Source: a virus
Strand: one strand, 5' to 3'
IMG/VR virus record: IMGVR_UViG_3300046777_002716
Span: 1-64,000 of that record
Length of the DNA: 64,000 bases
The position numbers and the translations under genes are program-made. The notes under the pieces were generated by a model, which ran no database searches, was not told where the DNA came from, and saw only the letters and a list, made by a program, of their open reading frames with translations. Each line of letters opens with the position of its first letter. Within the stretch, counting starts at the first letter, position 1. Shown here one piece after another: positions 4,361 to 15,685 of this stretch.

Positions 4361-4361
4361 T

Positions 4362-4432
4362 CGGGGTGGAGAGGATCGAACTCCCGTCTTCATCTTCCCA
4401 AAAGATGCCGTCTACCGCTGACTTACACCCCG
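4362..4432 (-). tRNA. tRNA-Pro(TGG)
   Basis: A 71-nt cloverleaf with acceptor CGGGGTG/CACCCCG. C1:G72 is typical of bacterial tRNA-Pro. The anticodon loop is TTTGGGA and the T-loop TTCGATC. No 3' CCA is encoded. It is read from the promoter at 4463-4491. Confidence 0.92.
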
Positions 4433-4462
4433 TTGTGCCGTTATTTAGTTCGGTGTACAATC

Positions 4463-4491
4463 ATTATACCTATAACAGGAACGATTGTCAA
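4463..4491 (-). promoter_or_regulatory. Consensus sigma-70 promoter for tRNA-Pro
   Basis: TTGACA (4486-4491), 17 bp, TATAAT (4463-4468) on the minus strand, about 30 bp upstream of the tRNA-Pro 5' end. Confidence 0.85.
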
Positions 4492-4550
4492 GAGGTAACA
4501 AAGGATAAACAAAAACACATTATTATTTAACAAAGTTGCTATAAAATGAC

Positions 4551-4742
4551 TCATTTGTTTAAAAATTTAAAAAATTCTTCATTGATTACTTTATCAAGTT
4601 CAGTCAATTGATATCTAGTAAAATCCCAATTATCTAAAATTAACTTATCAATAAATCTATAAACTTCTGTTGATATTTTAATTTTCTGCCTATAAAAAGA
4701 ACTAAGTATGAATTGTCTTTTTTGCCAAACCTCATCTTTCAT
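4551..4742 (-). CDS. Hypothetical protein, 63 residues
   Basis: The product is basic and largely helical, with no recognised family. Its ATG overlaps the TGA of the upstream 49-residue gene (ATGA), which argues for a real translationally coupled gene. Confidence 0.6.
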   Translation of the reverse strand: MKDEVWQKRQFILSSFYRQKIKISTEVYRFIDKLILDNWDFTRYQLTELDKVINEEFFKFLNK

Positions 4743-4888
4743 TTTTCGTCACCAAGATACTTTGCTAAGGGATCTTTTTTAGTTTTTACTATTTCAACCG
4801 CTCTCTTATAGAACATGTTTTCGGTGTTACCAGAAGATTCGAAGGTTTCCTTGATCTTCACCCAATTGTTATAGGTGTGCTGATCCAT
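4739..4888 (-). CDS. Conserved-looking small protein, 49 residues
   Basis: The frame begins M-D-Q-H-T-Y-N-N-W-V and ends in a lysine-rich tail. It is short but has a clean start, coupled junction with the next gene (ATGA) and phage-like codon use. I recall similar short proteins in cyanomyoviruses, but assign no function. Confidence 0.6.
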   Translation of the reverse strand: MDQHTYNNWVKIKETFESSGNTENMFYKRAVEIVKTKKDPLAKYLGDEK

Positions 4889-4906
4889 AAGATTATAAGT
4901 TGAATA

Positions 4907-4925
4907 CTACTAGTTATACTAGTAG
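4907..4925. repeat. Hairpin upstream of the 49-residue gene
   Basis: Eight-base arms CTACTAGT and ACTAGTAG surround a 3-nt loop. It sits between tRNA-Ser and the 49-residue gene and could be a terminator, operator or mRNA leader hairpin. Confidence 0.5.
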
Positions 4926-5002
4926 ATAGTTTGATATTGTCATGTTTGTGTTGATACAAAAATATAGATTAAAAAAATCTAAAATTTTGTAGTATTTGTA
5001 AC

Positions 5003-5083
5003 GGAGAATAATAGAATCGAACTATCAGGTGTTACCCTGGCATCGTTTTCAAGACGATTTACCGACCATCGGTGCTATTCTCC
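5003..5083 (-). tRNA. tRNA-Ser(TGA)
   Basis: An 81-nt class II tRNA with acceptor GGAGAAT, anticodon loop CTTGAAA and a variable arm, as expected for serine. The T-loop is TTCGATT. It stands alone between small protein genes. Confidence 0.9.
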
Positions 5084-5122
5084 ATATTTTGAATATCCCA
5101 AATGTTTTGCGTAGTGACAATA

Positions 5123-5380
5123 TCAGCGGACTTCAAAATCTAATCTTCTTACTTTACGTTGACGCCTTGCTTCTTGAAATGCAAGATCTTCGTTTGTAAG
5201 TAATCCAGATTTTATTTTATTATTTAGAGAGTTTAGCATGACTATCTGTGATAAGTCAACTGCAGAGATCTTATTACCCCTAATAGTTGCCATATTTGGG
5301 CATCCACATGAAACTGTTTTCGTATGATGCCCTTCTATCTCCCTGTTACAGGATCTGCATCTAATTCTTATATTTTCCAT
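5123..5380 (-). CDS. Small zinc-ribbon-like protein, 85 residues
   Basis: Cysteines at about residues 8 and 11 (C-R-S-C) and 25 and 27 (C-G-C-P), with histidines between, suggest one zinc site in the N-terminal third. The C-terminus is basic (R-R-Q-R-K-V-R-R). It may bind nucleic acid. It follows the dps-like gene by 19 bp and is probably co-transcribed with it from the late motif at 5858-5865. Confidence 0.65.
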   Translation of the reverse strand: MENIRIRCRSCNREIEGHHTKTVSCGCPNMATIRGNKISAVDLSQIVMLNSLNNKIKSGLLTNEDLAFQEARRQRKVRRLDFEVR

Positions 5381-5399
5381 TTTTAATTATAAAATTTAT

Positions 5400-5837
5400 T
5401 TATTTTTCAGTGAAAGATCTTAAAAACCAAACAAACTTACCGTGTGCCTCGTTTAAATCATCAAGTAGATTTGTAGTTCCTCTTGAATTAAGTTCTTCTG
5501 CAACTTTTGCTGCTTCACTAAACATATCTATAAGAGTTTTATGGTCATCAAGTAGGTCTTTAATCATTTCCATCTCAGATAGACCACTCTTTGCTTCTGA
5601 AACCCTTGATACTTCAGAAACCCTTGAAAGAGCACTAACTGGTTTTGCACCAAGAAAACGAATATGCTCCGAAATTCTATCAACTTCTTCAAAGAGAGCA
5701 TTATACTGCTCACCAAATAAAGTATGAATTTGATAAAAATCAGGTCCACTAATGTGCCAATGATATACCCAAGTTTTTTGAAAAAGAACAAAAAGACTTG
5801 CCTGAGTATCAGATAAAATCTTATATAGTTTTTCCAT
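5400..5837 (-). CDS. Dps/ferritin-like protein
   Basis: The 145-residue protein keeps the Dps pattern: W-H-I-S-G-P-D-F near residues 27-34, then L-H/T-L-F-G-E-Q-Y, E-V-D-R-I-S-E-H-I-R and G-A-K-P. The histidine and the D/E residues would form the inter-subunit ferroxidase site. Family members assemble as dodecamers that oxidise and store iron and can coat DNA. A late motif lies 21 bp upstream, so it is probably made late and could protect replicated DNA from oxidative damage. Confidence 0.8.
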   Translation of the reverse strand: MEKLYKILSDTQASLFVLFQKTWVYHWHISGPDFYQIHTLFGEQYNALFEEVDRISEHIRFLGAKPVSALSRVSEVSRVSEAKSGLSEMEMIKDLLDDHKTLIDMFSEAAKVAEELNSRGTTNLLDDLNEAHGKFVWFLRSFTEK

Positions 5838-5857
5838 TATACCAATTAATTTTTAGG

Positions 5858-5865
5858 TATTTATA
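5858..5865 (-). promoter_or_regulatory. Late promoter motif TATAAATA
   Basis: An exact T4-type late -10 motif on the minus strand, 21 bp upstream of the dps-like ATG and just before tRNA-Val. Confidence 0.7.
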
Positions 5866-5869
5866 ATAT

Positions 5870-5940
5870 GGGTGATGACGGGATTGAACCGCCGGCCGCC
5901 TCAATGTAAACGAGATGCTCTACCGCTGAGCTAATCACCC
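5870..5940 (-). tRNA. tRNA-Val(TAC)
   Basis: A 71-nt cloverleaf with acceptor GGGTGAT/ATCACCC, anticodon loop TTTACAT and T-loop TTCAATC. It is the only valine tRNA seen. Confidence 0.9.
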
Positions 5941-5947
5941 AAAAAAG

Positions 5948-6112
5948 TCATGATTGACTTAGCATATACTCTACAGTATTAGCAATGTCATTCATAGCAG
6001 CACGAAGATCTTTTTGACCTCCAGATTCTTGCTTAATAATTGGTCGTGAAGAATCAGTAAGAGTCCAACGCCATTCATCAGCATGTTCAGAGTACCATAA
6101 TTTAATGTTCAT
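5948..6112 (-). CDS. Hypothetical protein, 54 residues
   Basis: The frame starts M-N-I-K-L-W-Y-S-E-H and is rich in tryptophan early on. It overlaps the upstream 52-residue gene by 11 nt. It ends 7 bp before tRNA-Val. No domain is recognised. Confidence 0.55.
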   Translation of the reverse strand: MNIKLWYSEHADEWRWTLTDSSRPIIKQESGGQKDLRAAMNDIANTVEYMLSQS

Positions 6113-6260
6113 TTTTCTGATACTCCAGTTTAACCCAATTTAAAAGCGCATTATAAGAATAAATTGCCGCTTCATTGCACTTATTCTTTTCCATATCATA
6201 GATATAGAACTCAAGTGCTTCAATGACCATTTGTCGGTCTTTTTGTGAAATAAGAGACAT
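6102..6260 (-). CDS. Hypothetical protein, 52 residues
   Basis: A short helical protein beginning M-S-L-I-S-Q-K-D-R-Q, first of an overlapping pair with the 54-residue gene. Its start lies within 10 bp of the hairpin that ends the SLH gene, so it may be read through from it. Unknown function. Confidence 0.5.
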   Translation of the reverse strand: MSLISQKDRQMVIEALEFYIYDMEKNKCNEAAIYSYNALLNWVKLEYQKNEH

Positions 6261-6268
6261 TGCTGAAA

Positions 6269-6286
6269 GGGGAGGTTTCCCTCCCC
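6269..6286 (-). terminator. Hairpin after the SLH protein gene
   Basis: GGGGAGG and CCTCCCC arms, 9 bp past the stop codon. The T-tract is short (CCTTTC), so termination may be partial. Confidence 0.5.
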
Positions 6287-6294
6287 AAGTTACA

Positions 6295-7179
6295 TCAGAA
6301 CTTGAAACCTAGACCAGTGGTGAATACTGGAGAGTATGCACCGTTGGTAGCACCGTAACTGTTAGCAGCATTGGTGGTAGGGAACTTCAGGTCAGCGAAA
6401 CCAACCAGAGAGTTGGTGATACGACCTTCCAGACCCACGGCGAGAACAACTTGACCCTTCTCACCCACAGCGGATTGGAAGTTAGCAGCGGTGTTGTTCA
6501 CGAAAGGAACTTGATAACCCACACCAGCGTACAGGTTTGCCTTGCTCACACCAGAAGCAGCACGGGCGAGACTCCAATCATAAGAAACTAGAGCACCACC
6601 AGCGGCACCGATTTGACCAGCAGGAGTACCAACGAAGTTAGCATAAGGACGGACGGCAACAGCATTTTGGTTGCTGAAGGTACGCACTGCATAACGACCT
6701 TGGATAGTACCACCAGACACGGTACGGTTCTCGGTGTAACCATTACCATCAACACCCTGCTTGTTCAGGAGAACACCAGCACCCAGGTAGTTACCTACGC
6801 CTTGTGCTTTCTGAGCAGAGGCAACTTCCAGAGCACTCACACGGGCGTTGGTGGCACCCAGTTCACGGGAGAACTCAGCACGGAGAGCAGCAGCGGTTTG
6901 GGCATCAGCAGCGGTGTAGAACTCGGTGATGCGGTCCAGGCAAGCATTAGTCAGGGCAGCGAGTTCAGCACGAGTAGCGGGTTGACCAGACTGGAAAGTA
7001 CCATTGGGATAACCAGCAACACAACCATAACGGGCAACAAGATTAGAGATCGCCTGATAGGACCACTCAGTAGGTTGCACATCACGCAGTTGAGAAACGC
7101 TAGTGACTTGTGCCATAGCAGGAGCAGCGATAGAAGTCGCGGCAACTACACCAGCAGTAATAATATTTTGAAAATTCAT
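6295..7179 (-). CDS. SLH-domain porin-like outer membrane protein
   Basis: The 294-residue protein has a signal peptide ending A-M-A-Q at about residue 24. It is followed by one SLH domain (about residues 28-85, with G-Y-P-N-G-T-F and T-R-A-E) and then a glycine/alanine-rich, beta-type C-terminal part ending in F-K-F, as in outer-membrane barrels. Cyanobacterial porins have this SLH-plus-barrel plan but are far longer (over 500 residues). This looks like a shortened, host-derived porin or surface protein. Its GC content is clearly above that of most neighbours. Secretion to the host envelope during infection is an inference. Confidence 0.75.
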   Translation of the reverse strand: MNFQNIITAGVVAATSIAAPAMAQVTSVSQLRDVQPTEWSYQAISNLVARYGCVAGYPNGTFQSGQPATRAELAALTNACLDRITEFYTAADAQTAAALRAEFSRELGATNARVSALEVASAQKAQGVGNYLGAGVLLNKQGVDGNGYTENRTVSGGTIQGRYAVRTFSNQNAVAVRPYANFVGTPAGQIGAAGGALVSYDWSLARAASGVSKANLYAGVGYQVPFVNNTAANFQSAVGEKGQVVLAVGLEGRITNSLVGFADLKFPTTNAANSYGATNGAYSPVFTTGLGFKF

Positions 7180-7236
7180 ATTGTATTAATAATTACAACT
7201 ACGAGGTTTATTTAGACGCCCTGAGTATTAGGGCAA

Positions 7237-7307
7237 GCGGCATATCGGATTCGAACCGATGACATTCAGCTTGGAAGGCTGACGTTCTACCACTGAACTA
7301 ATGCCGC
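7237..7307 (-). tRNA. tRNA-Gly(TCC)
   Basis: A 71-nt cloverleaf with acceptor GCGGCAT/ATGCCGC, anticodon loop CTTCCAA and T-loop TTCGAAT. It is read from the promoter at 7359-7387. Confidence 0.93.
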
Positions 7308-7358
7308 AAATGGTGGGGAGAAATAAATCTCCCAGCACACTTCTTTCACACGGAAGGG

Positions 7359-7387
7359 ATTATAAGACAAACTTTAAAGTTTGTCAA
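7359..7387 (-). promoter_or_regulatory. Consensus sigma-70 promoter
   Basis: TTGACA (7382-7387), 17 bp, TATAAT (7359-7364) on the minus strand. It lies directly after the 3' end of tRNA-Thr and drives tRNA-Gly and perhaps the SLH gene. The spacer contains the palindromic AACTTTAAAGTT. Confidence 0.85.
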
Positions 7388-7460
7388 GCCCCAGACAAGA
7401 CTTGAACTTGCGACCTGAGCTTTACAAAAGCCCTGCTCTATCCAACTGAGCTACTGAGGC
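7388..7460 (-). tRNA. tRNA-Thr(TGT)
   Basis: A 73-nt cloverleaf with acceptor GCCTCAG/CTGGGGC (one T-G pair), anticodon loop TTTGTAA and T-loop TTCAAGT. Confidence 0.92.
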
Positions 7461-7464
7461 AAAG

Positions 7465-7559
7465 GTGCCATGAGTGTCCACGGCACACCAGACACTTGGT
7501 TGTTTCGGATATGATGGTCCCGAAACTTATGATAGAATCGGAAATTTCCAACCCTATCA
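7465..7559 (-). ncRNA. Structured RNA candidate between tRNA-Thr and tRNA-Asn (two hairpins plus pseudoknot)
   Basis: This 95-nt spacer has no tRNA and no ORF but folds strongly. From its 5' end on the minus strand there are a TGATAG/CTATCA stem around GGAAATTTCC, and a 7-bp GTTTCGG/CCGAAAC hairpin. Two interleaved stems follow: AGTGTC (496-491) with GACACT (478-473), and GTGCC (486-482) with GGCAC (469-465). The interleaving predicts a pseudoknot. Function unknown. Confidence 0.5.
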
Positions 7560-7561
7560 AC

Positions 7562-7633
7562 TGGGGCGGCAGGGATCGAACCTGCGACCTAGATGTTAAC
7601 AGCATCCCGCTACTACCGCTGAGCTACACCCCA
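7562..7633 (-). tRNA. tRNA-Asn(GTT)
   Basis: A 72-nt cloverleaf with acceptor TGGGGTG/CGCCCCA, anticodon loop CTGTTAA and T-loop TTCGATC. Confidence 0.92.
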
Positions 7634-7643
7634 ATGTTTATTT

Positions 7644-7651
7644 TATAAATA
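7644..7651 (+). promoter_or_regulatory. Late promoter motif TATAAATA for the HNH gene
   Basis: An exact late -10 motif on the plus strand, 25 bp upstream of the HNH start codon and right beside tRNA-Asn. Confidence 0.7.
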
Positions 7652-7675
7652 AGATTAGCAGTTCGTGTTAATCTT

Positions 7676-8020
7676 ATGAAATGTGCTTGGCATCTATGTT
7701 TAGAAGAAGCAGTACTTTACAATGGCAGAGGCAAGTTTTGCTCCAAACAATGTAAAAACAAGTATCATGTAGACCAGAGAAGAAAGAAACTCAAGCAAGA
7801 CAGTATAGCATATAAAGGAGGTGCTTGTCAATGTTGTGGTTATAATCGTTCTCACTGGGCATTAGAGTTTCACCATTTAGACCCTAAAGAAAAAGATTTT
7901 CATTTATCTAAAGGTGGTCATACTAGAAGTTGGGAAAAAATCAAAGAAGAATTGGATAAATGTATTCTAGTATGTTCTAACTGCCATTCCGAAATTCATC
8001 ACGGAATTCGTGAATTATAA
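7676..8020 (+). CDS. HNH homing endonuclease-like protein
   Basis: The 114-residue protein has two zinc-binding pairs (C-A-W-H-L-C at the N-terminus; C-Q-C-C in the middle) and the HNH core L-E-F-H-H-L-D-P with a closing C-S-N-C-H-S-E-I-H-H. It is one of four plus-strand genes in the window and lies inside the tRNA array between tRNA-Asn and tRNA-Ala, as expected for a mobile free-standing endonuclease. It has its own late motif. Confidence 0.85.
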   Translation: MKCAWHLCLEEAVLYNGRGKFCSKQCKNKYHVDQRRKKLKQDSIAYKGGACQCCGYNRSHWALEFHHLDPKEKDFHLSKGGHTRSWEKIKEELDKCILVCSNCHSEIHHGIREL

Positions 8021-8076
8021 TGGAATGTAAGGGAAAGGAGTGCTCTTGGGCGAACCCGCAGGATCACTTTCCCGAT

Positions 8077-8148
8077 GGAGAATAGGAGACTCGAACTCCT
8101 GACCTTCGCCTTGCAAAGGCGCTGCTCTACCAACTGAGCTAATTCCCC
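8077..8148 (-). tRNA. tRNA-Ala(TGC)
   Basis: A 72-nt cloverleaf with acceptor GGGGAAT/ATTCTCC, anticodon loop TTTGCAA and T-loop TTCGAGT. The top anticodon-stem pair is G-A. The usual alanine G3:U70 pair is present. Confidence 0.9.
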
Positions 8149-8153
8149 TTGGG

Positions 8154-8224
8154 AGCGAGAGGGTGGAATTGAACCACCTACCTGAGGCTTATGAGACCTC
8201 CGTGCAACCGTTACACCTCTCCGC
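8154..8224 (-). tRNA. tRNA-Met-like (CAT), irregular acceptor stem
   Basis: The anticodon loop CTCATAA, D-stem GTGT/GCAC and T-arm GGTGG-TTCAATT-CCACC are clear. The acceptor strands GCGGAGAG and CTCTCGC pair only if one G is bulged. It could be an elongator or initiator methionine tRNA, or a lysidine-modified isoleucine tRNA; none of the three CAT tRNAs here has a clean initiator signature. Confidence 0.7.
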
Positions 8225-8239
8225 AATGCGTTTATGACA

Positions 8240-8268
8240 ATCATAAGGTATATATACCAGATTGTCAA
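8240..8268 (-). promoter_or_regulatory. Sigma-70 promoter for the tRNA-Met/Ala block
   Basis: TTGACA (8263-8268), 17 bp, TATGAT (8240-8245) on the minus strand. The spacer holds the palindromic GGTATATATACC. Confidence 0.8.
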
Positions 8269-8269
8269 G

Positions 8270-8343
8270 TGCCCGTGATAGGAGTCGAACCTACACTGTA
8301 TGGATTCTAAGTCCACCCTCTCTGCCAGTTGGAGTACACGGGC
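8270..8343 (-). tRNA. tRNA-Leu(TAG)
   Basis: A 74-nt tRNA with acceptor GCCCGTG/CACGGGC, anticodon loop CTTAGAA and T-loop TTCGACT. The variable region is unusually short for leucine, a feature shared with the Leu(TAA) and Leu(GAG) genes nearby. Confidence 0.88.
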
Positions 8344-8407
8344 AAGATGGATTAAGTGTGATATACCTCATAAGGATATAACAGGGACCTAACCTCTATC
8401 TCTTTAT

Positions 8408-8436
8408 ATAGTAACAAATTCTAAAGAATTTGTCAA
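8408..8436 (-). promoter_or_regulatory. Sigma-70 promoter for tRNA-Leu(TAG)
   Basis: TTGACA (8431-8436), 17 bp, TACTAT (8408-8413) on the minus strand, directly after the 3' end of tRNA-Arg(ACG). Confidence 0.75.
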
Positions 8437-8438
8437 GC

Positions 8439-8511
8439 GTCCTCTGCAGGATTTGAACCTGCGACTTCTTCGTTCGTAGCGAAGCACTCTGTTCCACTGA
8501 GTTAAGAGGAC
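8439..8511 (-). tRNA. tRNA-Arg(ACG)
   Basis: A 73-nt cloverleaf with acceptor GTCCTCT/AGAGGAC, anticodon loop CTACGAA and T-loop TTCAAAT. The A34 would need conversion to inosine by the host to read all CGN-type codons. Confidence 0.92.
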
Positions 8512-8516
8512 AAAGG

Positions 8517-8589
8517 CACCCTCGGTAGGATTCGAACCTACGACTAATCGCTTAGAAGGCGAATACTCTAGCCACTGAGTTACGAGGGC
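8517..8589 (-). tRNA. tRNA-Arg(TCT)
   Basis: A 73-nt cloverleaf with acceptor GCCCTCG/CGAGGGT, anticodon loop CTTCTAA and T-loop TTCGAAT. A second Arg(TCT) gene is at 11888. Confidence 0.92.
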
Positions 8590-8596
8590 ATTTTGG

Positions 8597-8667
8597 CGAA
8601 GGATGAGGGATTTGAACCCCCACTAACAGTTTTGGAGACTGTCGTGCTACCATTACACTAATCCAAC
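8597..8667 (-). tRNA. tRNA-Trp(CCA)
   Basis: The anticodon loop CTCCAAA is flanked by a perfect 5-bp stem. The acceptor GTTGGAT/ATCCTTC has two T-T mismatches at positions 2 and 3, so charging or stability may be impaired. G73 fits tryptophan. Confidence 0.82.
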
Positions 8668-8689
8668 ATAAGTTCCTCAAGATGAGGAA

Positions 8690-8777
8690 TACCAGCCGAG
8701 GGTATCGAACCCTCCCAAAGGCCCTAATCTGGGGCAAATCGCTTATAAGGCGACTCTGAACACCTGTTCTGACTGGC
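8690..8777 (-). tRNA. Class II tRNA with TAT anticodon (tRNA-Ile(TAT)-like, identity uncertain)
   Basis: An 88-nt tRNA with acceptor GCCAGTC/GGCTGGT, a short-loop D-arm GAACAGGTGTTC, anticodon loop CTTATAA and a T-arm GAGGG-TTCGATA-CCCTC. It has a long variable arm built on GCCC/GGGC pairing. The loop reads UAU, which would decode AUA (isoleucine), yet long variable arms belong to leucine, serine and tyrosine tRNAs. A73 is compatible with Leu, Ile or Tyr. Confidence 0.75.
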
Positions 8778-8800
8778 GATTATTTACTCATAAAGAGCAA

Positions 8801-8879
8801 TACTCCACCTCAGACTTGAACTGAGAATCCGAAGAAGTAGATTTTGAGTCTACCGCGTTTACCATTTCGCCAGTGGAGC
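8801..8879 (-). tRNA. tRNA-Leu(CAA)
   Basis: A 79-nt class II tRNA with acceptor GCTCCAC/GTGGAGT, anticodon loop CTCAAAA in a 5-bp stem, a longer variable arm and T-loop TTCAAGT. Confidence 0.9.
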
Positions 8880-8906
8880 GTAATTATACAAACTTTAAGT
8901 TTGCAA

Positions 8907-8979
8907 TACCCGTGGTCGGATTCGAACCGACACTGTAGAGATTTTAAGTCTCCTGTCTCTGCCGTTGGACTACACGGGC
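8907..8979 (-). tRNA. tRNA-Leu(TAA)
   Basis: A 73-nt tRNA with acceptor GCCCGTG/CACGGGT, anticodon loop CTTAAAA and T-loop TTCGAAT. It is close in sequence to Leu(TAG) at 8270, including the short variable region, and suggests a duplication within the array. Confidence 0.9.
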
Positions 8980-8983
8980 ATAG

Positions 8984-9056
8984 TGCTCGATGAGGGGATC
9001 GAACCCACCTATATCCGATTATGAGTCGGGTGCTTTCACCAGATAGCTAATCGAGC
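8984..9056 (-). tRNA. tRNA-Met(CAT)
   Basis: A 73-nt cloverleaf with a perfect acceptor GCTCGAT/ATCGAGC, anticodon loop CTCATAA and T-loop TTCGATC. It is the first gene behind the promoter at 9103-9131. Confidence 0.9.
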
Positions 9057-9080
9057 AGTGTTAGGTTTTCAAGGTTCGAA

Positions 9081-9098
9081 GTGGTCTCTCAACCACCC
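9081..9098 (-). repeat. Promoter-proximal 5' hairpin, copy 1
   Basis: On the minus strand GTGGT and ACCAC arms flank a TGAGAG loop, beginning about 5 bp after the -10 box of the 9103-9131 promoter. The same 18 bases recur at 11587-11604 behind a matching promoter. Confidence 0.7.
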
Positions 9099-9102
9099 TC
9101 TT

Positions 9103-9131
9103 AGAATAACACCAAACCCAGTCTGGGTCAA
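9103..9131 (-). promoter_or_regulatory. Sigma-70-like promoter (TTGACC/TATTCT)
   Basis: TTGACC (9126-9131), 17 bp, TATTCT (9103-9108) on the minus strand. It has a sister promoter at 11609-11637 with the same boxes and the same 5' hairpin. Confidence 0.7.
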
Positions 9132-9140
9132 GTGGGTTGT

Positions 9141-9158
9141 GCCAGTTTGGGAACTGGC
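9141..9158. repeat. Palindrome between tRNA-Leu(GAG) and a promoter
   Basis: GCCAGTT and AACTGGC arms with a TGGG loop. It is a near copy of the 4339-4360 palindrome and lies 2 bp after the tRNA 3' end and 9 bp before the -35 box. Confidence 0.65.
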
Positions 9159-9160
9159 GA

Positions 9161-9234
9161 TGTCCGTGAGAGGATTCGAACCTCCAACACCTACCCCCTC
9201 AAGGTAGTGCCTCTTCCAGTTGGGCTACACGGAC
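9161..9234 (-). tRNA. tRNA-Leu(GAG)
   Basis: A 74-nt tRNA with acceptor GTCCGTG/CACGGAC, anticodon loop TTGAGGG in a CTACC/GGTAG stem and T-loop TTCGAAT. The variable region is short for leucine. Confidence 0.88.
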
Positions 9235-9237
9235 GAG

Positions 9238-9309
9238 TTCCAGAACTAGGATTCGAACCTAGACAAACACAGTCAAAGTGTGTTGACCTGCCAGTTAGTC
9301 GATTCTGGA
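9238..9309 (-). tRNA. tRNA-Gln(TTG)
   Basis: A 72-nt cloverleaf with acceptor TCCAGAA/TTCTGGA, anticodon loop CTTTGAC and T-loop TTCGAAT. Confidence 0.92.
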
Positions 9310-9328
9310 TTGAAATGGGATTACCCCA

Positions 9329-9658
9329 TTAGTAATATGAAAATGATGCAGAAGTAGCAGTAGCAGTGTCTGTAGCATCATCATCATCTTGATGTTTACG
9401 ATTTTTAAAATACATAAACAAAGGTGATTTTTCGGTTGGAACTAGTACATCAGACCAAAAAGATTCTCCTGACGAACATTGATAAAGAACATCACCCTCA
9501 TAAGGAATCATAGCAACAGCATTGCAAGAATTGTCTTTAATGTAATTATATTCTTTATAATATACTGGACGATTTTTTGCTGCTTGCATAGCAAACACTG
9601 GTTCACTGATTCCAAAAATAATCAAAAACAGAAAAAATAATTTAATGATAAATTTCAT
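9329..9658 (-). CDS. Small secreted protein inside the tRNA array
   Basis: I start this 109-residue protein at the ATG at 9656-9658; a TTG two codons upstream is less likely. Residues 1-23 form a signal peptide (K-F-I-I-K-L then a leucine/phenylalanine core, ending V-F-A). The mature part has a cysteine pair, an aspartate run (about residues 90-94) and a serine/threonine-rich tail. No family is recognised. It interrupts the tRNA array between tRNA-Cys and tRNA-Gln. Confidence 0.65.
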   Translation of the reverse strand: MKFIIKLFFLFLIIFGISEPVFAMQAAKNRPVYYKEYNYIKDNSCNAVAMIPYEGDVLYQCSSGESFWSDVLVPTEKSPLFMYFKNRKHQDDDDATDTATATSASFSYY

Positions 9659-9678
9659 AATCAATTGTAGTTTGTTTA

Positions 9679-9696
9679 TTATCTCAAAAGAGATAA
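9679..9696. repeat. Hairpin after tRNA-Cys
   Basis: Perfect 7-nt arms TTATCTC and GAGATAA with a 4-nt loop, one base beyond the tRNA-Cys 3' end. It may end or trim the tRNA precursor. Confidence 0.55.
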
Positions 9697-9697
9697 G

Positions 9698-9773
9698 AGT
9701 TCAGGGTGGGATTTGAACCCACGGTGAAAGAAGTTTTGCAGACTTCCGCATTCGACCACTCTGCCACCTGAAC
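9698..9773 (-). tRNA. tRNA-Cys(GCA)
   Basis: A 76-nt tRNA with acceptor GTTCAGG/CCTGAAC, anticodon loop CTGCAAA, T-loop TTCAAAT and U73, the cysteine discriminator. Confidence 0.92.
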
Positions 9774-9776
9774 ATA

Positions 9777-9849
9777 TGGGTCTGGTGGGGTTTGAACCCA
9801 CAACTTTTCGGTTAAGAGCCGACTACTCTACCAATTGAGTTACAGACCC
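9777..9849 (-). tRNA. tRNA-Lys(CTT)
   Basis: A 73-nt cloverleaf with acceptor GGGTCTG/CAGACCC and anticodon loop CTCTTAA. It is a close relative of Lys(TTT) at 11400 and probably arose from it by duplication. Confidence 0.9.
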
Positions 9850-9852
9850 AAG

Positions 9853-9924
9853 AGCCCTTAGTGAGAATCAAACTCACGACCTCATTCTTACCAAGAATGC
9901 GTTCTATCACTGAACTATAAGGGC
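9853..9924 (-). tRNA. tRNA-Thr(GGT)
   Basis: A 72-nt cloverleaf with acceptor GCCCTTA/TAAGGGC, anticodon loop TTGGTAA and an unusual T-loop TTTGATT. Confidence 0.9.
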
Positions 9925-9926
9925 GG

Positions 9927-9998
9927 GGTGCCATACGAGATTTGAACTCGTCTACCCAGTTTCACAAACTGGTTCCTTAACCACTAGGATAATGGCAC
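9927..9998 (-). tRNA. tRNA-His(GTG)
   Basis: A 72-nt cloverleaf with acceptor GTGCCAT/ATGGCAC, anticodon loop TTGTGAA and C73, as histidine needs. The -1 position is T in the DNA, so G-1 would have to be added or retained by other means. Confidence 0.92.
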
Positions 9999-9999
9999 A

Positions 10000-10073
10000 T
10001 GGCAGTAGATGGATTTGAACCACCGACCATAGGAATATGAGACCCGTGCTCTACCAAACTGAGCTATACTGCC
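10000..10073 (-). tRNA. tRNA with CAT anticodon (Met or Ile2)
   Basis: Acceptor GGCAGTA/TACTGCC and T-arm are regular. The anticodon loop CTCATAT sits on an irregular stem. It could be an elongator Met tRNA or an isoleucine tRNA whose C34 becomes lysidine; sequence alone does not decide. Confidence 0.8.
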
Positions 10074-10076
10074 AAA

Positions 10077-10161
10077 CGGAGAGTAGAGGATTCGAACCTC
10101 TGGTGCTGTTACACACAAGACCTTTCCAAGATCTCACCATAAACCACTCGGACAACTCTCC
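10077..10161 (-). tRNA. tRNA-Ser(GGA)
   Basis: An 85-nt class II tRNA with acceptor GGAGAGT/ACTCTCC, anticodon loop TTGGAAA, a long variable arm and G73. Confidence 0.92.
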
Positions 10162-10165
10162 AAGG

Positions 10166-10254
10166 CGGAAGTGGTTGGATTCGAACCAACGGTGCCGATT
10201 ACTCGACACGGAATCTTAGCAGGATTCTGCGATAAGCCTCTCTGCCACACTTCC
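10166..10254 (-). tRNA. tRNA-Ser(GCT)
   Basis: An 89-nt class II tRNA with acceptor GGAAGTG/CACTTCC, anticodon loop CTGCTAA, a long variable arm and G73. Confidence 0.92.
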
Positions 10255-10257
10255 AAG

Positions 10258-10350
10258 TTGATAAGGGCACCTGTCCGAATTTAAAGTGCGCTTGGGTCGT
10301 TTAATCCACCGCCGTCACACTAATGTTTGGTGGCGATGGACCCTTATCAA
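10258..10350 (-). ncRNA. Structured RNA candidate, 93 nt, closed by a 10-bp stem
   Basis: TTGATAAGGG (10258-10267) pairs perfectly with CCCTTATCAA (10341-10350). Inside, TCCA/CGCC pairs with GGCG/TGGA, and a GCAC/GTGC hairpin follows. There is no ORF and no T-loop. It lies between tRNA-Ser(GCT) and tRNA-Ile, in the way stable RNAs C and D lie in the T4 tRNA cluster. Function unknown. Confidence 0.55.
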
Positions 10351-10364
10351 ATCCCCGAAGGGAA

Positions 10365-10436
10365 TTGGAACGGTGAGATTTGAACTCACGACTTCTGCGT
10401 TATCAGCACAGCACTCTACCACTGAGTTACATTCCA
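10365..10436 (-). tRNA. tRNA-Ile(GAT)
   Basis: A 72-nt cloverleaf with acceptor TGGAATG/CGTTCCA, anticodon loop CTGATAA and T-loop TTCAAAT. Confidence 0.92.
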
Positions 10437-10441
10437 TCGAA

Positions 10442-10554
10442 GTAAGAGACACTAGTATCATCTTACCTGTTTCAGTTTTCGGACTGAAAAACCTATCACT
10501 AACCAACCTAAGTTTCATAACGGAGGAAGTGAATCTCCGTGACCATAAAGGTCA
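10442..10554 (-). ncRNA. Four consecutive hairpins between tRNA-Ile and tRNA-Phe
   Basis: This 113-nt spacer contains GTAAGA/TCTTAC (10442-10466), TTTCAGT/ACTGAAA (10470-10489), CGGAG/CTCCG (10521-10539) and TGACC/GGTCA (10540-10554). No start codon frame or tRNA is present. It may be a non-coding RNA or a processed spacer. Confidence 0.4.
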
Positions 10555-10556
10555 AG

Positions 10557-10630
10557 TGGGAACACACAGAATTGAACTGTGACCTCATGTTCTTCAGACA
10601 TACGTGCCGACCAACCTACACCATGTTCCC
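10557..10630 (-). tRNA. tRNA-Phe(GAA)
   Basis: A 74-nt cloverleaf with acceptor GGGAACA/TGTTCCC, anticodon loop CTGAAGA and T-loop TTCAATT. Confidence 0.9.
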
Positions 10631-10636
10631 AAAGTT

Positions 10637-10711
10637 TGGAAATTCAGGAATCGAACCTGTCGGGCAGTAAGGGCGATCAACTCCCCACTTTCCTGTGTTC
10701 CACACATTTCC
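10637..10711 (-). tRNA. tRNA-like gene, isotype undetermined
   Basis: The acceptor GGAAATG/AATTTCC and T-arm ACAGG-TTCGATT-CCTG are good, and the length (75 nt) is normal. The D-arm is a tight GTGT/ACAC hairpin without the usual GG loop. The anticodon arm (GGGG...GCCC) gives no 7-nt loop with U33 and a purine at 37; TGA or GAT are the nearest readings. It is a decayed tRNA or a tRNA mimic. Confidence 0.6.
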
Positions 10712-10714
10712 AAG

Positions 10715-10788
10715 TCGGAATGACAGGATTCGAACCTGCGACATCTCGCTCCCAAAGCGAGTGCTCTACCAAACTGAGCTACATTCCG
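10715..10788 (-). tRNA. tRNA-Pro(TGG), second copy
   Basis: A 74-nt cloverleaf with acceptor CGGAATG/CATTCCG (C1:G72), anticodon loop TTTGGGA in a perfect CTCGC/GCGAG stem and T-loop TTCGAAT. Confidence 0.92.
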
Positions 10789-10865
10789 TGGTCTGAGAGG
10801 CAGGATTTGAACCTGCGACCTGAGCGTTCCAAACACCCAGCTCTACCAAACTGAGCTACTCCCAG
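10789..10865 (-). tRNA. tRNA-Pro(TGG), third copy, with encoded CCA
   Basis: Acceptor CTGGGAG/CTCTCAG keeps C1:G72, followed by A73 and a genomic CCA, the only encoded CCA among these tRNAs. The anticodon loop TTTGGAA has A37 instead of the G37 expected for proline, so the assignment is a little less certain. Confidence 0.82.
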
Positions 10866-10868
10866 AGG

Positions 10869-10940
10869 TATTCCTAACGGGATTCGAACCCGTGCTACAA
10901 CCTTGAAAGGGTTGTGACCTAACCGCTAGTCGATAGGAAC
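10869..10940 (-). tRNA. tRNA-Glu(TTC)
   Basis: A 72-nt cloverleaf with acceptor GTTCCTA/TAGGAAT, anticodon loop CTTTCAA in a CAACC/GGTTG stem and T-loop TTCGAAT. Confidence 0.92.
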
Positions 10941-10944
10941 TTGA

Positions 10945-11037
10945 GAGAGGGGTATCCCACACGAAGTTACTTACGGATCACGCTTCGTAGCCTTATGGAT
11001 CCTGCCAGGGTCAATCTGGTGCCTAGGAATCCCTCTC
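10945..11037 (-). ncRNA. Structured RNA candidate, 93 nt, between tRNA-Glu and tRNA-Asp
   Basis: A GAGAGGG/CCCTCTC closing stem encloses a second GGATTCC/GGGATACC helix, a CCAG/CTGG hairpin with a 7-nt loop and an ACGAAG/CTTCGT hairpin. No TTCRA T-loop is found, so it is not a standard tRNA. Its length equals that of the RNA at 10258-10350. Confidence 0.5.
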
Positions 11038-11042
11038 CAATT

Positions 11043-11117
11043 CCAGTTATCGCTACGTCATTTCTTACCTAACTGGCAACCTTCAGAATGACGTGGAGAT
11101 TCGTACTGATGATCTCC
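11043..11117 (-). ncRNA. Hairpin plus predicted H-type pseudoknot beside tRNA-Asp
   Basis: On the minus strand a GGAGAT/ATCTCC hairpin (11117-11095) is followed by two interleaved perfect helices: ACGTCATT (11094-11087) with AATGACGT (11062-11055), and CCAGTTA (11076-11070) with TAACTGG (11049-11043). The 8-bp and 7-bp stems cannot both form without a pseudoknot. No ORF. Unknown function. Confidence 0.55.
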
Positions 11118-11119
11118 AA

Positions 11120-11192
11120 CGACCCTATGGGAATTCGAATCCCAGATTCCTACTAGACAGGTAGGCGTGATAGACCACTTCACTATAGGGCC
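11120..11192 (-). tRNA. tRNA-Asp(GTC)
   Basis: A 73-nt cloverleaf with acceptor GGCCCTA/TAGGGTC, anticodon loop CTGTCTA, T-loop TTCGAAT and G73, the aspartate discriminator. Confidence 0.92.
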
Positions 11193-11196
11193 ATGT

Positions 11197-11266
11197 TCAC
11201 CCGAGCAGGATTCGAACCTGCATCTCTTTCCATGGAAAGACGACATACCATTAGCCGCATCGGATG
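11197..11266 (-). tRNA. tRNA, isotype undetermined (6-nt anticodon loop)
   Basis: Acceptor CATCCGA/TCGGGTG (extendable by two pairs) and T-arm GCAGG-TTCGAAT-CCTGC are regular. The anticodon arm is a perfect palindrome TCTTT-CCATGG-AAAGA, leaving only six loop bases, so CAT, CCA and TCC readings all need a distorted arm. Total length is 70 nt. Confidence 0.65.
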
Positions 11267-11270
11267 AAGG

Positions 11271-11361
11271 TGGGAGAGGAGGGAATCGAACCCCCGATGG
11301 TTCTTATGTAACGGTTTTACAGACCGCCGCCACACATATTGCCGACAGTAGCCACTCTCCC
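11271..11361 (-). tRNA. tRNA-Tyr(GTA)
   Basis: A 91-nt class II tRNA with acceptor GGGAGAG/CTCTCCC, anticodon loop CTGTAAA, a long variable arm and A73, all fitting bacterial tyrosine tRNA. Confidence 0.93.
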
Positions 11362-11399
11362 AAATAGTTTATATTTAACGACCGAACTAAAACGGTCAA

Positions 11400-11471
11400 T
11401 GGGTCTGGTGGGATTTGAACCCACAACTTCCAGGTTAAAAGCCCGTTACTCTACCGTTGAGTTACAGACCC
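11400..11471 (-). tRNA. tRNA-Lys(TTT)
   Basis: A 72-nt cloverleaf with acceptor GGGTCTG/CAGACCC and anticodon loop CTTTTAA. It resembles Lys(CTT) at 9777 over most of its length. Confidence 0.92.
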
Positions 11472-11501
11472 ATAAAAGGTTTAGATTGTCAAGGTGCGAT
11501 T

Positions 11502-11581
11502 GTCACTGGAAGATAATGTTTTATCCAGAGGCCCAAGATAAATCTTAGGACTTAGACTGATGCTAGAAGCAGAGCAGTGAC
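11502..11581 (-). ncRNA. Structured RNA candidate transcribed from the 11609-11637 promoter
   Basis: CAGTGAC (11581-11575, read on the minus strand as GTCACTG) pairs with GTCACTG/CAGTGAC at 11508-11502. The stem encloses an AAGAT/ATCTT hairpin (about 11533-11549) and a GATAA/TTATC hairpin (about 11511-11525). The segment lies between the promoter's 5' hairpin and tRNA-Lys, so it is either a long tRNA leader or a separate RNA. Confidence 0.4.
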
Positions 11582-11586
11582 TTGTG

Positions 11587-11604
11587 GTGGTCTCTCAACC
11601 ACCC
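11587..11604 (-). repeat. Promoter-proximal 5' hairpin, copy 2
   Basis: The same 18 bases as 9081-9098, here with one more stem pair, beginning about 5 bp after the -10 box. Confidence 0.7.
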
Positions 11605-11608
11605 TTTA

Positions 11609-11637
11609 AGAATACCACTCTGTCCGTTAGGGGTCAA
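11609..11637 (-). promoter_or_regulatory. Sigma-70-like promoter (TTGACC/TATTCT), sister of 9103-9131
   Basis: TTGACC (11632-11637), 17 bp, TATTCT (11609-11614) on the minus strand, directed at the structured segment and tRNA-Lys(TTT). Confidence 0.7.
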
Positions 11638-11642
11638 GTGGG

Positions 11643-11668
11643 TTGTGACACTTAGAGAACTGTCACAA
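11643..11668. repeat. Palindrome upstream of the 11609 promoter
   Basis: Eight-base arms TTGTGACA and TGTCACAA with a 10-nt loop. It takes the place that the GTGCCAGTT palindromes hold at 4339 and 9141, between a transcript end and a promoter. Confidence 0.6.
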
Positions 11669-11673
11669 GCAAC

Positions 11674-11707
11674 AAAAAAGGGGAGGAAACTTTTGGTTTC
11701 TCTCCCC
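11674..11707 (-). terminator. Rho-independent terminator
   Basis: On the minus strand GGGGAGAGAAACC and GTTTCCTCCCC form a stem followed by six T. It lies 25 bp after the stop of the 33-codon ORF. Confidence 0.75.
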
Positions 11708-11732
11708 TGTCTTTTTGCTTTTATGGCAGTTA

Positions 11733-11834
11733 CTACATCTGACCTACCATACTCGCAAACAGGGGAGCACCCTCAATATGCCAATAGCGGCAATCGAGAA
11801 TACTAAACTGTTTTGTGGGCATTGGGTAAGACAT
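11733..11834 (-). CDS. Possible micro-protein, 33 residues
   Basis: This short frame (M-S-Y-P-M-P-T-K-Q-F start) sits exactly between its own promoter (11858-11886) and its own terminator (11674-11707). The ATG would be about 17 nt from the transcript start and has no clear ribosome site. It is either a micro-protein or a small RNA that happens to be open; no family is recognised. Confidence 0.35.
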   Translation of the reverse strand: MSYPMPTKQFSILDCRYWHIEGAPLFASMVGQM

Positions 11835-11857
11835 TGTTTTCGACCTAAGTGTTATTA

Positions 11858-11886
11858 TTTATAATACTTTTATTTTTAAAAGTCAA
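11858..11886 (-). promoter_or_regulatory. Sigma-70-like promoter (TTGACT/TATAAA)
   Basis: TTGACT (11881-11886), 17 bp, TATAAA (11858-11863) on the minus strand, immediately after the 3' end of tRNA-Arg. Confidence 0.65.
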
Positions 11887-11887
11887 G

Positions 11888-11962
11888 CGTCTCAGGTTGG
11901 ATTCGAACCAACGACTCACGCTTTAGAAGAGCGTTACTCTAATTCCACTGAGTTACTGAGAC
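11888..11962 (-). tRNA. tRNA-Arg(TCT), second copy
   Basis: A 75-nt cloverleaf with acceptor GTCTCAG/CTGAGAC, anticodon loop CTTCTAA in an ACGCT/AGCGT stem and T-loop TTCGAAT. It differs from Arg(TCT) at 8517 in the acceptor. Confidence 0.92.
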
Positions 11963-13636: not shown

Positions 13637-13828
13637 ATGGCGCGTGAGTGGAATACTCCAAAGCGTGAACCTTGGAACGCACCAATACACCAAATATTAA
13701 AGGCGATAGACAATCATACAAGATTGTGGATGGAAACTGGAGATCTATGGCACAGAGACCAAGCAGAGTACCTTAGATCTTATGTTAATGAATTGAAAAC
13801 CTGGATACACAAAGAAGAGGGTCGTTAG
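13637..13828 (+). CDS. Small plus-strand protein, 63 residues
   Basis: The frame starts M-A-R-E-W-N-T-P-K-R and has regularly spaced tryptophans and histidines with no membrane segment. It points against nearly all neighbours and its last codons meet the end of the lysozyme frame tail to tail. Codon use is phage-like, and I recall similar short proteins in cyanomyoviruses. Function unknown. Confidence 0.6.
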   Translation: MAREWNTPKREPWNAPIHQILKAIDNHTRLWMETGDLWHRDQAEYLRSYVNELKTWIHKEEGR

Positions 13829-14295
13829 GACCTCCAGAGTTTTCCTTCTGCTTTCCTTCGTCTTGCAAGTCCCGCCTCAACGTCAGTACCAGGATCTCTA
13901 TAAAGATACAAAGCATTGGGAACTTTATCCCATTCCTTGTTTTTCAAGACCCGTGTAATAGTATCAAAGTTAGGAGCACCATAGAAATCTGCACCAAGAT
14001 TGTAAGCAAAGCAAAGTAGAGCCCCTCTTTGATTGTCATTCATTTCCCCCCAATAAGGTATTTTCCTGAGTTCTGGAAGAAACTCATTTTGGATTTGATA
14101 ATCAAATAGGTCATCTGCTTCTTTTTGTGTAATCTTTTCTCCCAGTTTGAAAGGAGACCCACCCTTTTTACGGGTACTTCCCCATCCTACAGTATAAGGT
14201 TTTCCTTTCGTTTTAGGGTCTGGATAGGCAACTAAATGACAATTTTCAAATTCTTTGATGAGTTCTACTCCAGATTGTGGAATAGAACTATCTAC
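13825..14295 (-). CDS. GH24-type lysozyme domain in the -1 frame (3' part of a frameshift fusion)
   Basis: From the GTA codon at 14295-14293 the frame is open for 156 residues. The GH24 triad is present: E in I-K-E-F-E, D in A-Y-P-D-P and T in P-Y-T-V-G-W-G. No ATG, GTG or TTG lies before the catalytic glutamate; the first ATG (14043) would lose all three catalytic residues. The frame begins exactly where the upstream peptidase frame ends, over an A-AAA-AAG heptamer. It should be made only as a fusion of about 386 residues. Confidence 0.75.
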   Translation of the reverse strand, partial: VDSSIPQSGVELIKEFENCHLVAYPDPKTKGKPYTVGWGSTRKKGGSPFKLGEKITQKEADDLFDYQIQNEFLPELRKIPYWGEMNDNQRGALLCFAYNLGADFYGAPNFDTITRVLKNKEWDKVPNALYLYRDPGTDVEAGLARRRKAEGKLWRS

Positions 14296-14301
14296 TTTTT
14301 T
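14261..14301 (-). promoter_or_regulatory. Candidate programmed -1 ribosomal frameshift signal
   Basis: The heptamer A-AAA-AAG (14301-14295) lies in the zero frame of the peptidase gene, directly before its TAG stop (14294-14292). After a 5-nt spacer a hairpin follows at 14289-14261: 12 pairs including one G-U, with a 5-nt loop. A -1 slip continues into the lysozyme frame. Heptamer, spacer and hairpin match the layout of known bacterial and viral -1 signals such as dnaX. Confidence 0.7.
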
Positions 14302-14984
14302 ACTGGTTCGAAGATTCTACCCCACCCGTCATTGCCTGCAGGGCACCATCTACGGGCAAGTTCTGAACGCTTGTAGACTGCACCCTTACCGTTCGCTACG
14401 GCACCCGTATATCCGTCATTGAGACTGCCATAGGGGTCGTTGACAACATAATCCCCATTTGGTGTCTTACCAATGACTACAACCATGTGCCCACCAGTAG
14501 GTGCAGAAAGAGGACCCCTGTGTAAGATACCAATAACAACAGGTCTACCGTTGGATAATTCACGATCAAGATCAGAAAAAGTAAGATTGTAACTAAAACG
14601 TGAATTGAGACCATAACCTTGTAGAACACGGGTTTGAACCGCATGATCTGTTGTATCACCAATTGCGAATACTTTGCGAATGTATGCATCATCGCCTTTG
14701 GGTCCTACGAGTGTGCCTGGTTTAATATACTCAAGACACATCGCACAGGCAGATGAATTACAGGTTCTATTTGCGTCTCTATAATTATCTGTCTGTGGAT
14801 AAAATGGTACAGTAAGAATATTGTTCTTTGGAGGTTGTACTTTGGTCCTATAGACCTTCACCCACTCTGCGGTATCATCTAGGAATAGACCAGGCAAAGC
14901 ATTTTCAAGAATCTCAACTGCTTTAACGTGATTAGGATTCTTCTCGTCGTAATACTTGAAAAAATTGTGGAGGTCGATTTTCAT
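14292..14984 (-). CDS. C39-like cysteine peptidase protein (zero-frame product)
   Basis: The 230-residue product has a Peptidase_C39_2-like domain: V-P-F-Y-P-Q-T-D-N at about residues 59-67, the likely catalytic cysteine in R-T-C-N-S-S-A-C, the histidine in G-G-H-M-V-V-V and the N-D-P-Y-G motif. It ends E-P-V-K-K at the stop that overlaps the frameshift heptamer. Alone it would be a peptidase or amidase of the cell wall; after frameshifting it carries a lysozyme domain. It overlaps no neighbour and starts 2 bp after the 59-residue gene. Confidence 0.75.
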   Translation of the reverse strand: MKIDLHNFFKYYDEKNPNHVKAVEILENALPGLFLDDTAEWVKVYRTKVQPPKNNILTVPFYPQTDNYRDANRTCNSSACAMCLEYIKPGTLVGPKGDDAYIRKVFAIGDTTDHAVQTRVLQGYGLNSRFSYNLTFSDLDRELSNGRPVVIGILHRGPLSAPTGGHMVVVIGKTPNGDYVVNDPYGSLNDGYTGAVANGKGAVYKRSELARRWCPAGNDGWGRIFEPVKK

Positions 14985-15247: not shown

Positions 15248-15685
15248 ATGACTTGGAAATATAATGGTGAGGACTTTATTGAAGTTCCTAAAAAAATGGA
15301 AGGTTTTGTTTATATAATTACCAATATTACTAATGATAGAAAATATATTGGTAAAAAACATTTTTGGACAAGACAAAAAGATAGAAAAACTGGTAGAAGA
15401 AAAACTAAAGAAAGTGATTGGAAAAATTATTATGGTTCTTGTGATGAATTAAATGAAGATGTAAAAAATCTAGGTAAAGATAAATTCATTAGAGAAATAT
15501 TATATCTTTGTCCTCATAAAAAAAGTATGAGTTATTATGAAACCTATGAACAGTTTACTAGAAATGTTCTTATGGATGAAAGTTATTACAATACAAATAT
15601 TGAAGGTAAGTTCTTTGAAAGTGAAAGAACCAATATTTATGAAGCAGTTCTCAAGAGTACCTCATTAGATTTCTTAGTGTCTTAG
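15248..15685 (+). CDS. GIY-YIG homing endonuclease-like protein (SegE type)
   Basis: The 145-residue protein has the nuclease core as F-V-Y-I-I-T-N (about 21-27) and K-Y-I-G-K-K (33-38), then W-K-N-Y-Y-G-S and the metal-binding E in Y-Y-E-T-Y-E. This variant is seen in SegE-like phage enzymes. It is encoded against the direction of its neighbours and has its own late-type motif. It is A+T rich compared with nearby genes, which fits recent arrival. Confidence 0.75.
   Translation: MTWKYNGEDFIEVPKKMEGFVYIITNITNDRKYIGKKHFWTRQKDRKTGRRKTKESDWKNYYGSCDELNEDVKNLGKDKFIREILYLCPHKKSMSYYETYEQFTRNVLMDESYYNTNIEGKFFESERTNIYEAVLKSTSLDFLVS

Follow-up and report, generated by a model that had tools for sequence, protein, structure and literature searches.

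A conserved programmed -1 ribosomal frameshift of the dnaX type is very probably used in the lysin gene of cyanophages, in the absence of protein, ribosome-profiling or reporter data. As far as sequences alone can tell, many picocyanobacterial viruses seem to make their lysozyme only by way of a one-base backward slip at the end of a peptidase gene. The locus analysed lies in a window of 64,000 nucleotides (the whole stretch of DNA under study), taken from a virus contig of 101,897 bases. All features of the lysin are located on the minus strand, which the initial annotation had not given, and are listed below together with the two lysine tRNA genes of the phage.

14292..14984, minus strand: C39-like peptidase open reading frame (0 frame), 230 amino acids, PF13529, ending E-P-V-K-K-TAG; made by normal termination
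14835..14984, minus strand: N-terminal helical module of the peptidase, approximately residues 1-50; a copy is present on lysozymes with their own start
14295..14301, minus strand: slippery heptamer A AAA AAG, in frame, immediately before the stop
14292..14294, minus strand: 0-frame stop codon UAG
14261..14289, minus strand: hairpin AGTTCTATTCCA-CAATC-TGGAGTAGAACT, putative stimulator, with 12 pairs (one G-U), a 5-nt loop and a 5-nt spacer
13825..14295, minus strand: GH24 lysozyme (PF00959) read in the -1 frame; 156 codons and a stop, with GTA as the first -1 codon
11399..11472, minus strand: phage tRNA-Lys(UUU), able to slip at A AAA AAG
9776..9850, minus strand: phage tRNA-Lys(CUU), a possible counterforce to slippage on AAG; found only here among the phages checked

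The peptidase ATG is preceded by GAGGA (14994-14990), and the frame closes with the codons GTA AAA AAG TAG, so that the heptamer claimed in the initial annotation was found in place at 14301..14295. The -1 frame stays open from 14316 to 13825; the first ATG, GTG or TTG in it is located at 14043, past the catalytic Glu, Asp and Thr, in agreement with the earlier reading of a lysozyme frame without a usable start. A backward slip by one base would read K-K-V-D-S-S-I-P-Q-S-G-V-E-L-I-K-E-F-E and then continue into the lysozyme. The product of the -1 frame is predicted to be a GH24 phage lysozyme from its match to Phage_lysozyme (PF00959; E 2.9e-19) and from the residues Glu, Asp and Thr, its activity being inferred. 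The peptidase is assigned to the C39-like cysteine peptidases on the basis of the match to Peptidase_C39_2 (PF13529; E 8.6e-13), the residues Cys, His and Asp, and a predicted papain-like fold, peptidoglycan cleavage being again an inference. The single-sequence AlphaFold prediction was useless (pLDDT 41), and an alignment-based model (pLDDT 80) was used instead, the fold of which agrees with C39/papain-like peptidases. Both the Cys, His and Asp of the peptidase and the Glu, Asp and Thr of the lysozyme are invariant in all 77 frameshift-type relatives described below.

The 12-pair hairpin with a 5-nt loop, noted earlier at five bases beyond the heptamer, was likewise recovered. Its region folds with -17.8 kcal/mol (z -4.85), which none of 200 dinucleotide shuffles equalled, and its 3' arm doubles as the coding sequence for the start of the lysozyme domain (GVEL). 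A search of Rfam gave only a chance match to a miRNA. For an in-frame heptamer within 18 nt of the stop that closes a frame of at least 60 codons and opens a -1 frame of at least 80 codons, Markov simulations yield about 0.1 occurrences per 64 kb; on this ground, and on that of its conservation in relatives, a chance overlap was rejected. The window contains three such configurations, and the other two (29145 and 38959, minus strand) are followed by genes with an ATG of their own. Near the lysin, on the plus strand (15248-15685), there is a GIY-YIG homing-endonuclease-like gene, called 'NAD synthetase' in the records; genes under this name are also located near the lysin in S-SRM01, S-CAM7 and ACG-2014f.

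Under the proposed mechanism, ribosomes would first make the N-terminal module together with the C39-like peptidase and then meet A AAA AAG immediately ahead of the stop, where most of them would terminate and release free peptidase. Some, paused by the hairpin, would slip back by one base with both lysine tRNAs re-pairing on AAA AAA, and would then read on to produce a module-peptidase-lysozyme protein.

To collect relatives, viral contigs were scanned four times with the peptidase and once with the lysozyme; with the isolate loci added, this gave 340 peptidase loci, of which 129 with an adjacent lysozyme remained after dereplication at 95%. Among the 80 dereplicated loci whose lysozyme lies in the -1 frame and whose stop is not overlapped by a start, 77 have the heptamer in frame at the peptidase stop; the three exceptions turned out to have a start. 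The signal is A AAA AAG in 75 of the 77 and U UUU UUU, the S-CAM7 type, in two, and the stop adjoins the heptamer in 69, being 3 or 6 nt off in the others. No heptamer was present in 62 loci without lysozyme, in 18 in-frame fusions or in 13 loci where the lysozyme lies in another frame and has its own start. A start (ATG, GTG or TTG) overlaps the stop in 28 dereplicated loci; stray ATG, GTG or TTG codons occur elsewhere in the lysozyme frame of some frameshift-class loci, and none in 63 of the 80. A scan of genome contigs gave one relative without lysozyme, in a Myxococcota bin.

Isolates illustrate the range of layouts. S-PM2 has GCA AAA AAG TAA followed by the hairpin AGCTCTACTTCC / GGAGTAGAGCT, the arms of which are changed yet still paired, and its start-less lysozyme is located in the -1 frame. 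S-CAM7 shows GTT TTT TTT CCA CAG TAG and the hairpin GTAGAACC...GGTTCTAC, again with the lysozyme in the -1 frame. ACG-2014f carries an in-frame peptidase-lysozyme fusion, and in DSL-LC02/03 peptidase and lysozyme are encoded by separate genes. S-SRM01 retains the heptamer, but an ATG overlaps the stop of its peptidase. In S-CREM1 (L003:1491-2672) both domains are fused in frame in the reverse order, lysozyme first. In the records of S-PM2 and S-CAM7 the lysozyme is annotated only as a short 219-base 'lysin' (L002:2298-2516 and L008:2298-2516); the starts given there lie beyond the catalytic residues and were for this reason not accepted as genuine.

Selection on the heptamer was seen at synonymous positions. 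The first lysine of the motif is AAA in all 69 aligned rows, whereas the other lysine columns of these genes mostly mix AAA and AAG (overall 64% vs 36%). The preceding codon varies (GTA, GCA, ACA, GAA and TCA, for V, A, T, E and S) and ends in A in every A-type locus. Given the amino acids, the chance probability of the heptamer is about 0.07 per locus, and the genes compared are divergent, with 4-fold site identity averaging 0.51 and nucleotide identity down to 57%. No Shine-Dalgarno-like stimulator was present where dnaX has one, some 10 nt ahead of the heptamer; only a GGGG 15 nt upstream was found, in 69 of the 77 loci, because the W-G-R codons there are conserved. Such a stimulator is present in about 56% of IS elements and is optional across the wider bacterial class of -1 frameshifts (PMC5009743).

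Selection was also evident on the hairpin. The mean minimum free energy of the 77 loci is -18.1 kcal/mol, against -12.3 kcal/mol for synonymous recodings that keep the protein of the -1 frame (mean z -1.87); the hairpins of a few relatives (L105, L122 and L082) show no or hardly any gain over such recodings. The complementarity between the two arms of the same locus is 23.5, compared with 14.8 (sd 0.61) when 3' arms are swapped between loci, and the maximum of 20,000 permutations is 17.7. Related sequences are not independent in these tests, a point addressed by the U-type site and by a subset of 12 mutually divergent loci, in which the own-arm value is 21.1 vs 14.1 after swapping. In one family of 21 sequences, five pairs are changed on both sides, and none of 500 shuffles reaches the covariation score; the small family holding the hairpin of the window itself shows one-sided changes only, without double-sided covariation. 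Spacers in the relatives are mostly 2-8 nt. A predicted RNA structure a few nucleotides past the heptamer is, by these comparisons, under selection. The conservation of heptamer and hairpin in related phages, which the initial annotation had named as a check, was thus found, with arms that co-vary, and its proposal that -1 frameshifting yields both the peptidase alone and a two-domain fusion is supported, the ratio and the activities being inferred.

That the ribosome slips, and not RNA polymerase, is an inference. The addition of an A by RNA polymerase on the A6 run would produce the fusion from an altered mRNA; transcriptional slippage of this kind occurs in dnaX of Thermus thermophilus, among other cases (PMC5009743), and S-CAM7 offers a run of eight T. 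The A run is, however, exactly six in 74 of the 75 A-type loci without drift to longer runs, and a conserved RNA hairpin stands a few nucleotides downstream, which is a hallmark of ribosomal slippage. Tandem tRNA slippage therefore fits better than polymerase slippage. The tRNA-Lys(UUU) of S-PM2 and other phages also speaks for the ribosome, and we regard slippage by the polymerase as improbable.

Slightly less credit is given to termination and reinitiation, by which a separate lysozyme would be made from a non-canonical start such as ATT, with hairpin and heptamer being incidental or serving the coupling. The heptamer is still there in 11 of the 28 loci with an overlapping start (11 of all 129), and coupling can therefore replace or accompany frameshifting. 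Reinitiation, however, requires neither an open linker nor linker lengths in threes, and both are seen in the start-less loci: from heptamer to lysozyme the -1 frame is open in 77 of 77, whereas the 0 frame has a further stop in 75 of them and the +1 frame in 66, and the lengths are 23+3n nt, varying only in threes. The synonymous positions of the heptamer are fixed, and the selection on the hairpin vanishes where a start is present: no such excess is seen in the 11 loci that combine the heptamer with an overlapping start (mean z -0.37).

An error of sequencing or assembly, with a real gene of seven A and one in-frame fusion, is very hard to maintain. One extra A does fuse the frames, and seven-A in-frame contigs (L069 and relatives) exist among six-A relatives. 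Since a wrong count of A had been named as the observation that would refute the frameshift, the test was run on relatives: the six A of 74 dereplicated loci come from many projects and include S-PM2, and the conservation of these loci refutes the error for the family. The U UUU UUU of the S-CAM7 isolates, the constant presence of the heptamer at start-less lysozymes, and a co-varying hairpin without obvious reason in an in-frame gene also stand against it. A lysozyme part decaying as a pseudogene after a frameshift mutation, for which only the missing start of its own speaks, can practically be set aside because purifying selection acts on the -1 frame, which has invariant catalytic residues in 77 of 77 loci and no stops in genes down to 57% nucleotide identity.

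With programmed ribosomal frameshifting as the preferred reading, the distribution of the N-terminal module bears on its purpose. The heptamer was found in 88 of 91 dereplicated loci whose lysozyme lacks an N-terminal module, and in none of the 28 loci whose lysozyme has its own; the three module-less exceptions have short starts. Of the 28 own modules, 16 are a 56-aa segment and 12 clearly copy the N-terminal segment of the peptidase. The 56-aa segment, IKFIDAVKNHKDLPHQNDAWNFLQ...FARRYRNQK, heads lysozymes whose ATG overlaps the peptidase stop (L009, L068, L071 and 13 further dereplicated loci). Pfam holds no family for either module, and a profile comparison of the two gave weak support for kinship (E 0.00075, probability 25%, control E 0.07). 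In tree-aware pairs of heptamer versus module, four go in the predicted direction, none against and three are neutral (p 0.125), the pairs being too few. Homologues with separate genes and no heptamer, which the initial annotation would have taken as refutation, do exist, but nearly all of them have a lysozyme with its own start and its own N-terminal module. The frameshift thus probably supplies a module-less lysozyme with the N-terminal module of the peptidase, the role of which is probably wall targeting (inferred). The most likely purpose, inferred together with the ratio, is to place the module on a start-less lysozyme in fixed proportion to free peptidase.

On the peptidase tree, 24 changes of the frameshift state are counted, at least 10 of them being forced by well-supported branches. 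Many forks of this tree (FastTree) are weak, and the counts could be too high if the two halves have recombined. The S-CAM7 pair with the U UUU UUU site nests inside a clade of in-frame fusions, and the seven-A in-frame fusion L069 nests inside a six-A frameshift clade. The seven-A contigs L069, L074, L076 and L078 are in-frame fusions in which the hairpin is still kept (-22.4 kcal/mol). The polarity there may be reversed, as in dnaX, because a -1 slip would soon meet a stop.

There are 32 tRNA genes in the window phage, on the minus strand (4361-11962), and together they make up a near-complete set. In the regions read, S-PM2 and three other frameshift-type phages have tRNA-Lys(UUU) only. By an argument in PMC5009743, AAG should be kept in frame by a CUU tRNA, and for the window phage this therefore calls for caution or points to a possible regulator: tRNA-Lys(CUU) might lower slippage. 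As a tentative joint view, rather doubtful at present, the frameshift of T4-like cyanophages would be one of several interchangeable evolutionary routes by which an N-terminal (wall-targeting) module is added to the lysozyme, and their own tRNA-Lys (UUU, here also CUU) would tune the balance between free peptidase and peptidase-lysozyme and hence the timing of lysis.

Picocyanobacterial viruses matter for carbon cycling, and in a widespread group of them two predicted wall-degrading enzymes are very probably joined by a frameshift, the signal of which was missed in published genomes. Its recognition corrects the truncated lysins annotated for S-PM2 and S-CAM7 and accounts for an orphan family of truncated 'endolysins'. 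The match of the PHROG family phrog_10457 (95 aa, 'endolysin') is confined to the C-terminal half of the lysozyme, and the family seems to be a casualty of the same annotation. Frameshift, in-frame fusion, coupled start and separate gene form a natural series for asking why lysin forms keep a fixed ratio.

Frameshifting in dsDNA phages is best known from tail, capsid and repressor genes. No lysin of a dsDNA phage is named in the passages found of the recoding review PMC5009743, while PRFect places lysins among the genes known to frameshift (PMC10885494). In agreement with the initial annotation, we found no frameshift described for a cyanophage lysin in the open-access literature. The fitting lysin reference of PRFect is reportedly a 1994 paper on a Lactococcus phage, a possible precedent in which the nature of the overlap is unchecked. 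That case concerns a Gram-positive host and a single report, and we know of no conserved signal for it. Apart from it, the conserved use of frameshifting to build a two-enzyme phage lysin seems undescribed, provisionally because the subscription literature was not covered.

Among known systems, mycobacteriophage Ms6 LysA is likewise made in two forms from a single gene, and normal timing of lysis depends on both (PMC3111421); unlike the cyanophage lysin, its short form lacks the N-terminus and arises from internal in-frame initiation. The fusions of PHROG phrog_3617 and ACG-2014f contain the same two domains in the same order but, unlike the frameshift loci, in one open frame, always fused and without the heptamer. 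Escherichia coli dnaX shares A AAA AAG, a hairpin about 5 nt downstream, a stop near the site and two products with a common N-terminus. Its shifted frame, however, ends early and gives the short product, whereas that of the cyanophage lysin would give the long one; dnaX also has an upstream Shine-Dalgarno stimulator, for which no counterpart was found here, and functions in replication rather than in host lysis. The G/GT tail assembly chaperones of lambda and the Ig-like extensions of capsid and tail proteins resemble the present case in that tailed phages make a short and a long product in a ratio, and Ig-like domains are likewise attached by frameshift in one phage and in frame in another. 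Those are structural or assembly genes, whereas the cyanophage frameshift would join two lysin enzymes.
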